Below are positions 15,799 through 27,278 of a DNA stretch of 31,825 nucleotides, one piece after another. The DNA comes from a virus, in the IMG/VR virus record IMGVR_UViG_3300047560_003133, positions 1 to 31,825 of that record; one strand, 5' to 3'. The notes under the pieces are model-generated. The model saw nothing but the letters and a program-made list of their open reading frames with translations, was not told the origin of the DNA and made no database searches. Numbering within the stretch: position 1 is the stretch's first letter; each line of letters starts with the position of its first letter. A program made the translations under genes and the position numbers.

Positions 15799-16590
15799 AT
15801 GACTGCATTATCTTTTTTGATTGACAAATACAACAAATCCTACCCTTTCGGCAGAAAGATGTTTAGGTTCCACGTGTTAACACACCTGGCCCTGCTCTAT
15901 TTTATAGCAGTTGGTACTTCTTTTCAATGGTTCATGTTTCTCATTGCATACTTCTTGTATGCGTGTGTTGGATTTTCTATTGGATTTCATCGAATGCTGG
16001 CTCACCGAGCTTTCAAAGAGCAAGCATGGTTCAGACCTATTGCAATTTTATTTGGCACGCTTAGTGGCATTGGTTCGGCGTTGAGTTTTGTTAGTACACA
16101 CCGAGACCATCACAGATACTCAGACCGACCCGGTGATGCTTACTCGATGTACAATTTACCTGGCTGGTACGCACAGTGGTTTCCTATGTTTGAAAAGGTG
16201 TCTCTTAAAAGATCGTTTGATTTGTTTAAGGATCCCACCTGCCGCTTCACACAAAAACATTATTTCAAAGTACATATGGCGTGGGCTGCTTTGCTATTCC
16301 TTATAGATCCAATGGCTGTTATTTATTTCTACCTAGCACCCGTGGCTGTGTTTTGGAGTGCCGCAAATTCTTTAAACACTCTAAGCCATTGGCCAAACAC
16401 TAACTGGTTATTTTACAGAAATTTTGACACGAAAGACAAGAGCGTATGTTGCATACCTATTGGCATCTACACTTTTGGTGAAGGCTGGCATAACAATCAT
16501 CATCACAACGGTCGCGCAAAAAACTTCAAAGTCAAATGGTGGGAGTTTGATATATCGTACCATGTTATTAAGCTCGTTGAGAAAAAATGA
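15799..16590 (+). CDS. Membrane fatty acid desaturase (acyl-CoA/acyl-lipid delta-9 type)
   Basis: 263 residues. It should introduce a cis double bond into fatty acyl chains, using a di-iron site at the cytoplasmic membrane. All three histidine boxes are present: HRMLAH (64-69), HRDHH (101-105) and HNNHH (231-235). Paired hydrophobic segments lie at about 25-60, 78-98 and 150-190. GEGWHNNHHH with the conserved GEGWHNxHH form is diagnostic of the delta-9 family. Nothing essential is missing, so it looks active. It is the first gene of a tight plus-strand operon and overlaps the next start (ATGA). It probably adjusts membrane fluidity during infection; electron donors would be host proteins. Confidence 0.93.
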   Translation: MTALSFLIDKYNKSYPFGRKMFRFHVLTHLALLYFIAVGTSFQWFMFLIAYFLYACVGFSIGFHRMLAHRAFKEQAWFRPIAILFGTLSGIGSALSFVSTHRDHHRYSDRPGDAYSMYNLPGWYAQWFPMFEKVSLKRSFDLFKDPTCRFTQKHYFKVHMAWAALLFLIDPMAVIYFYLAPVAVFWSAANSLNTLSHWPNTNWLFYRNFDTKDKSVCCIPIGIYTFGEGWHNNHHHNGRAKNFKVKWWEFDISYHVIKLVEKK

Positions 16591-18528: not shown

Positions 18529-19488
18529 ATGAAGAAGTTAGTCGTTTCATTGTTGATGGTGGTTTCTTTGGCTGTTCAAGCATGGGAACCATCTAAGCCG
18601 ATCAAAGTCATTATGGGTCAAGCACCTGGGGCTGGTAATGAGATCAGTTTCCGTGCTATGTCAATGATCGTAGCCCAAAAAAATCCAAACGTTAGTTTCA
18701 TCTACGATCACAAACCAGGCGCTGACGGCAACATCGCAATGAATGCATTCGAGGAGACTGCACCGGATGGACATACAGTCATTGTTCCTAGCCTTCAAGG
18801 GCAGTTTGTCACTGGTGAGATTTGGTTCAAGGACATGGTCAAATACAATCCGATGGATTGGAAACTGATTACAGTAATCGCCAAGAGTCCTCTTTGTATT
18901 ATTGCTAATCCAAAAAGTCAAGTCAATTCGGTTCCAGAGTTGCTTAGCGCTCTGAAATACTCTGATCGTAATATCAACTTTGCAATCGGTGGTGGTGCTC
19001 ATAAGGTGGCGTTCACATACATGATCGAAAAGACAAAGAGCAACCCACACAACAACCAAGTAGTGTTCTATAAAGGACCAGCTCAAGCTGCCATGGGTGT
19101 TGCTGCTGGTGATACTGAGTTTGGTATCATGCCAATTTCAATCGCTAAACCACTGATCGATGGTGGTAGAGTTAAGCTGCTTGCTTTGACCGGCGAACAA
19201 CACTTACCAGGTATTCCCAGAACAGCATTAATGAAAGATTACGTTCCAGGTATGAACGTATATGCTGGATGGGTGATCGCTCTTCACAAAGACACACCAA
19301 AAGACATCGTCGATTGGTATGTTACCAACTTTACACAAGCAATCCAAACAAACGAAGCAAAAAGATACTTCGAAGAAAATTTGATGTTCACTGAACCCAG
19401 CGAACTAGGTCCAAGGGGTGCCCGTCAGGCTGTGACTAAGCTAAGAGAACAATGGATCCCGATCGTCAAAAATATGAAAGCAGAATAA
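18529..19488 (+). CDS. TctC/Bug-type periplasmic solute-binding protein of tripartite tricarboxylate transporters
   Basis: 319 residues with a Sec signal peptide (MKKLVVSLLMVVSLAVQA, cleavage after Ala18). Family features run the full length: PIKVIMGQAPGAGNE, YDHKPGADGNIAMNAF followed by APDGHTV, then GGGAHKVAF, a DTEFGIMPISIAKPLIDGGRVKLLAL-type region (quoted in part), and WVIALHKDTPKDIVDWY. TctC proteins bind carboxylates or related small acids and deliver them to the TctA/TctB membrane parts. Neither partner is encoded in the window, so it would have to work with a host transporter or scavenge a ligand. The gene has a GAGG site and overlaps the next start by TAATG. It is intact. Confidence 0.92.
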   Translation: MKKLVVSLLMVVSLAVQAWEPSKPIKVIMGQAPGAGNEISFRAMSMIVAQKNPNVSFIYDHKPGADGNIAMNAFEETAPDGHTVIVPSLQGQFVTGEIWFKDMVKYNPMDWKLITVIAKSPLCIIANPKSQVNSVPELLSALKYSDRNINFAIGGGAHKVAFTYMIEKTKSNPHNNQVVFYKGPAQAAMGVAAGDTEFGIMPISIAKPLIDGGRVKLLALTGEQHLPGIPRTALMKDYVPGMNVYAGWVIALHKDTPKDIVDWYVTNFTQAIQTNEAKRYFEENLMFTEPSELGPRGARQAVTKLREQWIPIVKNMKAE

Positions 19489-24988: not shown

Positions 24989-25100
24989 AATGCGGGTGGT
25001 AAAATCTAAGAAGATTTATTCTAGAAAACTTAAACACAAACCGTTGACTTCCTCTGAAAAAGAAGGTAACGTCGAACTGTTGGCTGTGAAGGGTTATTAA
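24942..25100 (+). CDS. 52-residue basic conserved phage protein
   Basis: ATG at 24942, TAA at 25098-25100. The protein is very basic: MKRNHVAKDLRTPKYKMRVV, then KSKKIYSRK and KHKP. The pattern VAKDLRTPKYxxRVVKxKKxYxRK is one I recognise as a short conserved protein in many T4-like and other environmental phages, of unknown function. It overlaps the preceding gene by 47 bases and the following gene by TAATG, so coupling in one operon is likely. Too short for most gene finders. Confidence 0.7.
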   Translation: MKRNHVAKDLRTPKYKMRVVKSKKIYSRKLKHKPLTSSEKEGNVELLAVKGY

Positions 25101-25429
25101 TGAATCTTTTTGATTTTATAGAAGACGAAAAGCCGGCGGTCGAACAACCGCCGGTTCAAACTCTAAAGGAGAAGGTCCGTCAAAGGCGGGCTCAGATGCT
25201 GATCCACAGCTGCATCTATTATGAGTTAAATGAAACAGTAGTTGACGATCACACTTGGCAACGGTGGGCCGATGAACTCGAACAGTTGCAAAAACAAAAT
25301 CCAGAATTACTTGTTATTGATTTCTTTGATCACGAGTTTAAGGATTGGGATGGTGCAACTGGCGCGCACTTACCACACAGACACCCTTGGGTATACAATA
25401 AAGCGTTACAGATTTTAAATCACAAATAA
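25100..25429 (+). CDS. DNA ligase LigA-related small protein
   Basis: 109 residues. After an acidic start (MNLFDFIEDEKP), the segment VRQRRAQMLIHSCIYYELNE, then TVVDDHTWQRWADELEQLQ, resembles the N-terminal Ia region of NAD-dependent ligases (A-x-YY-x-L-x-x-x-x-x-S/D-x-x-Y/W). Many phages carry this fragment as a free-standing protein. There is no adenylation lysine or OB domain, so it is not a working ligase by itself. C-terminal HPWVYNKALQI is typical of the group. Confidence 0.6.
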   Translation: MNLFDFIEDEKPAVEQPPVQTLKEKVRQRRAQMLIHSCIYYELNETVVDDHTWQRWADELEQLQKQNPELLVIDFFDHEFKDWDGATGAHLPHRHPWVYNKALQILNHK

Positions 25430-25505: not shown

Positions 25506-26456
25506 ATGGCTCATATGGTCGAAACAATGGCTTACGCAGGCGAAACTCCTTGGCACGGTTTGGGTGTTCAAGTTCCTAGCGATCTTGCACCTGCGCAAAT
25601 GTTGGAAAAGGCTGGTCTGGATTGGACAGTGCAGAAAGTTCCAGCGTTTGCTGAAGTTGGCGGCAAGAAGACATCTGTTGGTTGGTCTGCTTTGGTTCGC
25701 TCTAGTGATGAATCAATCTTGTCTGTTGTTTCCAATGATTGGAATCCTGTACAGAACCACGAAGCGTTTGAATTCTTCCATGAGTATTGCGCTGCTGGTG
25801 ATATGGAGATGCATACAGCAGGCTCTTTACGTGATGGTCAAGTTGTTTGGGCACTTGCTAAGATCAAAGATTCGTTTGAGTTGTTTAAAGGTGACCAGGT
25901 TGACTCATACCTGTTGTTTACCAATCCTCACAAGTTCGGTCAATCGATTGACGTTCGCTTCACACCGATCCGTGTTGTTTGTAATAACACACTGACATTG
26001 TCTTTGTCTCAAAACGCTGATCGCATGGTGAAAAAAAGCCACCGTACAGAGTTCAATGCAGCGGAGGTCAAAGAGCAACTCGGCATTGCGACTGATAAAT
26101 TGGCTAAATATAAAGAGATGGCTGCATTTCTTGGTTCAAAGCGCTACAACGATAGCAGCCTTAAAGACTATTTTAACCGCATCTTCCCGGTGCTGGCTTA
26201 CAATAAGGAAAAGGGTCCTCAGCGCAAAGATCTTTCAAAGTCTGCAACACGTGCTTTGGAAGTTATTACTACCCAGCCTGGCGCACAGTTCGCCGAAGGC
26301 AGCTGGTGGCAAGCATTCAATGCTGTCACATACTTAACAGACCACGAGATTGGACGCTCAGCTGATTCACGCTTGACATCAGCATGGTTCGGTCCAAACA
26401 AAAATCTCAAAGTCAAAGCTCTCGAGACTGCTGTTGAATTTGCCGAAGCAGCTTGA
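25506..26456 (+). CDS. DUF932 / phage-plasmid-like protein
   Basis: 316 residues from the ATG at 25506; a TTG 12 bases upstream is less likely because the GAGG site overlaps it. The start MAHMVETMAYAGETPWHGLG and the following WTVQKVPAF, LSVVSNDWNPVQNHEAFEF and VRFTPIRVVCNNTLTLSL are diagnostic of the DUF932 family. Its members are common on phages and plasmids and have no established biochemical role. A strong promoter of its own suggests early or abundant expression. Its 3' end carries the promoter for the tmRNA gene. Confidence 0.92.
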   Translation: MAHMVETMAYAGETPWHGLGVQVPSDLAPAQMLEKAGLDWTVQKVPAFAEVGGKKTSVGWSALVRSSDESILSVVSNDWNPVQNHEAFEFFHEYCAAGDMEMHTAGSLRDGQVVWALAKIKDSFELFKGDQVDSYLLFTNPHKFGQSIDVRFTPIRVVCNNTLTLSLSQNADRMVKKSHRTEFNAAEVKEQLGIATDKLAKYKEMAAFLGSKRYNDSSLKDYFNRIFPVLAYNKEKGPQRKDLSKSATRALEVITTQPGAQFAEGSWWQAFNAVTYLTDHEIGRSADSRLTSAWFGPNKNLKVKALETAVEFAEAA

Positions 26457-26463
26457 GTATAAT
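26434..26463 (+). promoter_or_regulatory. Sigma70-like promoter for the tmRNA gene
   Basis: TTGAAT (26434-26439) and TATAAT (26458-26463) are 18 bases apart. The -35 box lies in the last codons of the DUF932 gene. Expected +1 is about 26470, at the start of a 6-bp hairpin (AGGGAG 26469-26474 with CTCCCT 26481-26486, loop TTTCGG). Confidence 0.65.
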
Positions 26464-26469
26464 ATGTGA

Positions 26470-26794
26470 GGGAGTTTCGGCTCCCTACATAAAATATGGT
26501 TGTATGAAGCAACTAGAAAAGTGTTCTGGACGTGGGTTCGACTCCCACCTGGTCCACCAGAAAGCATACTCCGTGGGGGCTACGAACCACATTAAACAAA
26601 TAAGTAGTATGAGTATGCTTCCTAATGGGCCAGCCATGGTTTCGACAGGGCAACAAGTACAGAAGTGGACAACTCGACACAGAGAGTCGCTAAAAGTAAA
26701 TTAAGTAAAAGCAAACGAAGAAAGCTTTTTGATGGCTGCCTAATAGGCCCCATCTGAGTTTTGCTAGTTGAACTTGGAAACAGAATCAACTAGC
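26470..26794 (+). ncRNA. ssrA: Circularly permuted two-piece tmRNA (ssrA); tag ANEESFLMAA
   Basis: The gene has the permuted order: acceptor piece first, then a spacer, then coding piece. The acceptor piece ends at 26559 with T-arm GTGGG-TTCGACT-CCCAC (26532-26548) and CTGGTCC-ACCA. The coding piece starts at 26627 with GGGCCAG, which pairs with CTGGTCC over 7 bp, including the G3.U70 pair that marks alanine acceptors. The D-loop-like GGTTTCGACAGGG follows. GTACAGAA (26657-26664) pairs with TTCTGGAC (26524-26531) with one mismatch to give the P2 helix. The tag frame is GCA at 26711 to the double stop TAA TAG (26741-26746). The spacer is bracketed by a 10-bp inverted repeat. It rescues stalled ribosomes by alanine charging and tagging for proteolysis. 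The exact 5' end of the mature acceptor piece is not certain. Confidence 0.9.
26562..26620 (+). repeat. Inverted repeat bracketing the tmRNA spacer
   Basis: AAGCATACTC (26562-26571) and GAGTATGCTT (26611-26620) are exact reverse complements. The first begins 3 bases after the acceptor CCA end, and the second ends 6 bases before the coding piece. The resulting stem extends the acceptor helix, so it likely presents both ends for processing into two pieces. Confidence 0.8.
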
Positions 26795-26806
26795 CCTATT
26801 TTTATT
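26763..26806 (+). terminator. Intrinsic terminator of the tmRNA gene
   Basis: GCTAGTTGA (26763-26771) pairs with TCAACTAGC (26786-26794) over 9 bp and is followed by CCTATTTTTATT. The 3' arm contains the stop codon of the opposite-strand homing endonuclease. The stem may also be part of the mature coding piece. Confidence 0.65.
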
Positions 26807-27178
26807 AGGAATGCCTTTCCTCACGGATGGTTTTCCTAGTTTAGCAAGACTAAGTTTTTTTCGTTGTTCATCGGACATTGGCTTACCTTTGTTAGAGGGT
26901 ATAGATCCTTTTTTCCGGCCCATTTTAAGGTTATAATATTTTTTACCGAATTCAGATTCTTTAATCATACGGAGAAACCTAGCTTCTTCTGATCTAGCTG
27001 ACTCTCTATTATTAAACATTTTGATAATTTTTCTGCGAAAATCGTTTGGCCTATATTGGTACTCGCCGTTGAACCAACGGGACGATGAAGTATAATCATC
27101 GTCGATGTTGCCCTCATGTATGCCGACATAAAACATTTTTCGCGAACGGTCTGACCAAATGTATAAAAAGTATTGCAT
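26786..27178 (-). CDS. GIY-YIG homing endonuclease with NUMOD3-type DNA-binding tail
   Basis: 130 residues from the ATG at 27178 (MQYFLYIWSDRS); a GGAGG site lies 6-10 bases upstream, which excludes the longer reading. The GIY-YIG core shows FLYI (4-7) and MFYVGIHEG (15-23), a variant YVG in place of YIG, then NNRESARSEEARFLRMI, which holds the conserved Glu helix. The tail GSIPSNKGKPMSDEQRKKLS, then LAKLGKPSVRKG, fits NUMOD3 repeats that bind DNA in phage homing enzymes. It is free-standing, points toward the tmRNA gene, and its stop codon lies within the tmRNA terminator stem. Confidence 0.82.
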   Translation of the reverse strand: MQYFLYIWSDRSRKMFYVGIHEGNIDDDYTSSSRWFNGEYQYRPNDFRRKIIKMFNNRESARSEEARFLRMIKESEFGKKYYNLKMGRKKGSIPSNKGKPMSDEQRKKLSLAKLGKPSVRKGIPNKNRAS

Positions 27179-27206: not shown

Positions 27207-27278
27207 TAGTAAACGCGAACTTTTAAGAATGCGTTTACTAGGGTTTCGGTAGGTTTCCTCGTAACAGAATAACCTACC
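27207..27278 (+). promoter_or_regulatory. Two tandem stem-loops in the outer-membrane protein leader
   Basis: Stem 1 is TAGTAAACGC (27207-27216) with GCGTTTACTA (27231-27240), 10 bp, 14-base loop. Stem 2 is GGTAGGTT (27248-27255) with AACCTACC (27271-27278), 8 bp, 15-base loop. Both loops end in AGAAT. No T run follows, so they are more likely stabilising or regulatory leader structures than terminators. An AAGGAG site follows before the ATG at 27304. Confidence 0.55.

Follow-up and report, generated by a model that had tools for sequence, protein, structure and literature searches.

A phage gene for a permuted, two-piece tmRNA, with a nuclease gene running into its 3' end from the opposite side, raises the question of what the RNA does for the phage and how its present form came about. 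As a rule, the tmRNAs of phages are treated as rescue genes that were taken from their hosts. The locus analysed here lies in a virus record of 31,825 nucleotides (31.8 kb; this whole stretch is called the window), whose baseplate protein has its nearest relatives in T4-like phages of Sinorhizobium, Caulobacter, Pelagibacter and Methylophilales and which, to judge from the larger genomes of its T4-like relatives, is a piece of a larger phage genome. The window carries a permuted tmRNA of a known family; we consider it probable that this tmRNA uses the SmpB of its host and that its tag and 3' end have been replaced by a homing cassette made of a tag, a 3' end and a nuclease gene.

The identity of the RNA was evaluated with ARAGORN and with Rfam models, which contain no pseudoknots. 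ARAGORN calls a permuted tmRNA at 26467-26834 with the tag ANEESFLMAA, and when the window was Markov-shuffled 300 times it made no such call; tmRNA_permuted (RF04321) matches at 26498-26743 with 113.5 bits (gathering threshold 47, E 1.1e-21) and beta_tmRNA (RF01850) at 26420-26807 with 100.5 bits (gathering threshold 84). A preliminary description of the locus had proposed these searches (Infernal with the permuted and beta models, and ARAGORN), and all of them were positive; the two-piece tmRNA that it had recognized is real, since ARAGORN and the two Rfam models agree. The elements it had named are all present, namely the acceptor-before-coding order, the 7-bp stem GGGCCAG/CTGGTCC, the G3.U70 pair, the T-arm, the CCA and the tag followed by TAA TAG, and its reading of the gene as phage-encoded, with an alanine-type acceptor stem, is supported by ARAGORN, Rfam and the T4-like baseplate protein of this virus record. 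The tmRNA was confirmed, but not its start at 26470, because the modelled acceptor piece begins near 26498. The RNA of the window belongs to the known family of permuted tmRNAs, and its carrier is a T4-like phage.

Upstream of the gene, on the plus strand, a sigma-70-type promoter candidate (TTGAAT-N18-TATAAT, 26434-26463, 10 of 12 consensus positions) overlaps the end of a DUF932 gene and corresponds, in the Rfam alignment, to a promoter-like stretch at the 5' side of the beta_tmRNA model. Two sites of promoter quality were found in the region against a mean of 1.0 in its shuffles, and scores of such quality occur upstream of 39 of 140 viral tmRNAs versus 14 of 374 control stretches. Between this candidate and the acceptor piece lies a separate, small perfect hairpin without a T run (26470-26485, GGGAG-TTTCGG-CTCCC). 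The acceptor piece (26498-26559, plus strand, from the RF04321 and RF01850 alignments) comprises the 5' strand of helix P2, the T-arm (26532-26548, from the Rfam alignments and their coordinates) and the acceptor 3' strand CTGGTCC-ACCA (26549-26559), in which CCA is encoded. It is followed by an intervening segment (26560-26626), closed by a 10-bp inverted repeat (26562-26571 with 26611-26620), which would be cut out of the RNA, judging from the known processing of permuted tmRNAs. The 5' part of the coding piece (26627-26710, from the Rfam alignments) holds the acceptor 5' strand GGGCCAG (26627-26633), a D-like loop and the 3' strand of P2, up to the resume codon; the tag frame (26711-26746, ARAGORN and sequence) opens at this alanine codon and closes with its stops, and the 3'-terminal hairpin of the present tmRNA lies at 26763-26794, with the beta_tmRNA match reaching 26807.

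The window keeps its tag frame, stop codons, CCA, G3.U70 pair and T-arm intact. Among 57 distinct viral rows, acceptor-stem pairs 4-6 appear in G-C, C-G, A-U and U-A forms with pairing kept, G3.U70 is retained in 55, and 99% of the T-arm cells are paired; over the whole acceptor stem 88% of cells are paired, compared with 46-68% after sliding, some rows being out of register. The intervening segment is identical in the window and in the viral loci L012, L036 and L041 despite differing tags and acceptor pieces, nearly identical in L014 and L115 and highly variable in other phages; it may be exchanged as a unit.

The tmRNA would probably be transcribed from its own host-type promoter, tRNA-processing enzymes would split the transcript into acceptor piece and coding piece, and the RNA, charged with alanine, would together with host SmpB free stalled ribosomes and add ANEESFLMAA to their products. 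SmpB was found in none of 18 virus records (the window and 17 related ones, several of them fragmentary), which leaves the complete virus-controlled rescue system that had been suggested a supposition. Since all parts of the RNA are intact and a phage SmpB was not found, we take it to be a working tmRNA served by host SmpB, and it would act during infection.

A two-piece tmRNA in a phage is not in itself the novelty that the preliminary description implied. Phage Melnitz encodes one, and 53 two-piece forms from isolates, nearly all marine or aquatic phages, were counted among 133 distinct phage tmRNA structures (PMC9004378, 2022); in IMG/VR, at least 120 stretches fit a permuted-order pattern, with tags widely varied among the matches listed. 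Of the 107 loci having enough sequence, 45 have an endolysin relative downstream on the same strand, no more than 1.5 kb away, and all 14 phage relatives scanned match both the permuted and the beta model. The window gene resembles that of Melnitz in being permuted and phage-encoded, in belonging to aquatic T4-like phages and in that no phage SmpB was found here, but the Melnitz gene belongs to the alphaproteobacterial type and has a glutamine riboswitch (PMC9004378), whereas the window tmRNA matches the beta model, and the nuclease and displaced 3' end are features of the window. A glutamine riboswitch was sought within the window and none reached the Rfam thresholds. With betaproteobacterial tmRNAs (RF01850) the window gene shares a full-length model match, a promoter-like start and the MAA tag end; its score, however, is far under those of the best bacterial members (up to 336 bits), and its CCA is encoded where the RF01850 consensus shows a weakly conserved c. 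The MAA end, which had been thought unusual, stands in the tag of the Rfam beta consensus (ANDEHFAMAA in our reading) and in that of Gallionellaceae permuted tmRNAs (ANDENFAMAA, found with a looser pattern search). Beta-type permuted tmRNAs score above the cut-off in 16 of 399 species of the bacterial order searched. A close bacterial donor was rejected, as the tmRNA DNA of the window matched the 399 genomes of that order in short conserved stretches only; no FLMAA tag on a bacterial permuted tmRNA was found with the first pattern, a weak negative since this pattern demanded an encoded CCA and a long spacer.

Missing from the preliminary description were a homing endonuclease gene and a second, displaced tmRNA 3' end. 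The former, a predicted Seg-like GIY-YIG enzyme of 131 codons including the stop (26786-27178, minus strand, from Met 27178), has its stop codon inside the 3' hairpin of the tmRNA, and the two genes converge and overlap; the open frame reaches 27280, and the part shared within the family begins at Met 27178. It matches the phrog_314 homing endonuclease family (E 3e-13), and its identity to parts of enzymes annotated as Seg-like or homing is 30-49%. In 13 of 15 family members there is a match to Pfam GIY-YIG below its cut-off, NUMOD3 also gives a weak Pfam match, and a low-confidence fold model (pLDDT 65) has UPF0213 and I-TevI as its best fold matches, with E above 0.4; a profile search of solved structures with the nuclease alignment returned chance hits only. 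Sequence and fold are consistent with a GIY-YIG nuclease, although both lines are weak. Residues R34, E64, E65 and N83, invariant in the family alignment (A1), are presumably those of the active site, by analogy with I-TevI, and would fit an intact one. The nuclease has its own reading frame and is freestanding, and no group I or group II intron appeared in the Rfam scan of the window.

Two scans for relatives of the nuclease yielded 21 and then 67. With a threshold of 69% identity, 41 loci qualify; two of them stop at a contig edge, leaving 39 with DNA past the nuclease end; a permuted tmRNA lies at the 3' end of the nuclease in 36 of these (ARAGORN or Rfam), the three exceptions being L222 (which resembles L221), L242 (ARAGORN alone) and L233 (193 nt only). 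At 49-56% identity a permuted tmRNA is there in 12 of 17 relatives, and at 46% or less ARAGORN finds a tmRNA in none of nine. Many loci are near-duplicates, and clustering left 27 tmRNA groups with the nuclease, which is convergent in 26 and on the same strand in one. Two relatives from isolate phages, in Rhizobium phage RHph_I1_18 and Sinorhizobium phage phiN3, are flanked by protein genes, and the annotation shows no tmRNA at these sites. In the titles and abstracts of the open-licence literature searched we found no description of such a pairing, and the association of a homing endonuclease with a permuted tmRNA and its relic provisionally looks new.

Beyond the 5' end of the nuclease gene, at 27208-27278 of the plus strand, the window reads AGTAAACGCGAACTTTTAAG... 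and then contains a complete tmRNA-type 3' hairpin. This stretch, the relic, is what remains of a second tag region and 3' end of a tmRNA: its tag start has decayed (AGTAAACGCGAAC...) and its hairpin is intact (27248-27278). The arrangement recurs in most nuclease relatives. In our reading, the end codons of the relic still spell FALVA plus stop in L202 and FALAA plus stop in L203, and in L198 FALAA plus stop with one base missing. Elsewhere in 1.06 Mb of tmRNA loci the only convincing second 3' hairpin is in L064, which also bears the nuclease; L093 and L207 have the nuclease and no relic hairpin.

Comparison with loci without the nuclease (HEG-free) indicates which of the two ends is the older. 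The window relic resembles the native 3' ends of the HEG-free tmRNAs of L019 (87% over 79 nt) and L014 (98% over 48 nt), while its current tag and 3' end, of another type than the relic, are identical to those of L012 (84 of 84), a locus with the same tag and without the nuclease. HEG-free L098 and the relic side of L200 are 95.5% identical along 242 nt, an interval that begins just after the tag, takes in the 3' hairpin and reaches the next gene; on the left side, too, no locus matches L200 better than L098, and the current tag of L200 is of a different type. Similarly, HEG-free L028 matches the right side of L201 (84.5% over 465 nt), HEG-free L086 matches L196 on the left (90% over 94 nt) and on the right (100% over 46 nt), and L208 and HEG-free L014 share 97.3% identity in the 256 nt that lead to the tag, beyond which they diverge. 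For the window itself no single HEG-free relative matched both sides. From these empty sites and from the matches to L019, L014 and L012, the current tag and 3' end look incoming and the relic looks like the displaced original; replacement is well supported by these sequence comparisons. A cassette of tag, tmRNA 3' end and convergent Seg-like nuclease would have entered the tmRNA gene near the start of the tag, supplying a new working 3' half and stranding the decayed old tag and old 3' hairpin past the nuclease gene, and cutting of resident tmRNA genes by the nuclease would drive the replacement.

It might be argued that the nuclease is a mere neighbour, hitchhiking at a boundary while ordinary recombination between conserved tmRNA sequences shuffles the tags and 3' ends of working tmRNAs. 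Nuclease genes have been described at such exchange boundaries (PMC10448857), and tmRNA halves do recombine freely without the nuclease, as in L041, which shares 93.8% of the 5' part of the window gene and has another tag. We nevertheless hold this unlikely: in nearly all close relatives, in several phage backgrounds, the nuclease is tied to the tmRNA, mostly with a displaced 3' end, and HEG-free tmRNA loci are without such relics. Less probable still, in our judgement, is that the phage tmRNA is a decoy tying up host SmpB or tmRNA function, or a passenger kept as the home of a selfish nuclease. The absence of SmpB from the 18 virus records would agree with this, as would the tag-less tmRNA-like gene of mycobacteriophage DS6A, which has been discussed as an inhibitor (PMC4131195, PMC11915505), and the altered T-loops of some nuclease-bearing relatives; the intact tag frame, stops, CCA, G3.U70 and T-arm of the window and the covariation of acceptor-stem pairs across phages argue against it. 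These T-loops, in the nuclease-bearing tmRNAs of L189, L200 and L202, read TGCAAAT, or GGCAGTG in L202, instead of TTCGANT, possibly by decay or as a changed elbow; their frequency is not comparable with that in HEG-free loci, which were chosen on GGTTCRA.

If the cassette reading is right, the nuclease may also have left its mark on the tags. Clusters with the nuclease are enriched in LMAA tags (8 of 27, compared with 5 of 99 HEG-free clusters in an unbiased scan; Fisher p 0.001) and depleted in ALAA tags (8 of 27, compared with 67 of 99; p 0.0007), p-values that are optimistic since the tag clusters are partly non-independent. A nuclease targeting the common ALAA-type tag sequence, and travelling with resistant tags, would explain this skew. 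In matrix correlations nuclease similarity tracks the relic (0.38, p 0.017). Strict co-travelling of nuclease and current tag was not supported (Spearman -0.22 for the nuclease against current tag and 3' end); because nuclease similarity fails to track the current tag and L012 shares the tag without the nuclease, tags must also be exchanged by other recombination. We propose tentatively, and with rather less confidence than the cassette itself, that a family of homing endonucleases specialised on phage tmRNA genes spreads as its members cut resident tag regions and install their own tag and 3' end. The tags that phages carry would then be shaped by proteolysis and also by conflict with a selfish nuclease, and the LMAA tags enriched beside it would be cut-resistant alleles. 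If a dedicated nuclease keeps replacing 3' halves, this would help to explain why phages with similar tmRNA 5' halves differ in their tags.

Two known systems resemble this arrangement. An incoming genomic island restores the 3' end of a tmRNA gene and displaces the old end beyond itself. The likeness to such islands, which integrate into bacterial tmRNA genes (PMC11915505), lies in the restored 3' end and the displaced old one; in the window, however, the interval between the two ends contains a single homing endonuclease gene and no integrase, and the whole tag has been replaced. The other is T4 SegB (PMC2988022, PMC13096335), a freestanding GIY-YIG homing endonuclease and, like the window protein, a Seg-like enzyme adjoining translation RNA genes of a T4-like phage. 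SegB is located in the tRNA cluster of T4 (PMC2988022) and, in the face of defences, amplifies tRNA loci (PMC13096335). The window nuclease is about 30% identical to SegB-type proteins, its partner is a tmRNA and not a tRNA cluster, and, unlike in the SegB case, the 3' half of the partner has been replaced and the old end left behind. None of PMC2988022, PMC13096335 and PMC10448857 mentions tmRNA; if our reading is correct, the window nuclease would join SegB and its tRNAs as a second example in which translation RNAs of phages have a nuclease linked to them.

Some further genes of the window deserve mention. A separate gene at 25100-25429 encodes a protein of 109 amino acids that corresponds to the N-terminal NAD+-binding domain (Pfam Nlig-Ia, E 5.9e-26) of a bacterial DNA ligase and to no other part of it. 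By eye, 18529-19488 appears to encode a secreted substrate-binding protein of the tricarboxylate-transporter (Bug/TctC) type and 15799-16590 a fatty-acid desaturase, both probably of host origin.
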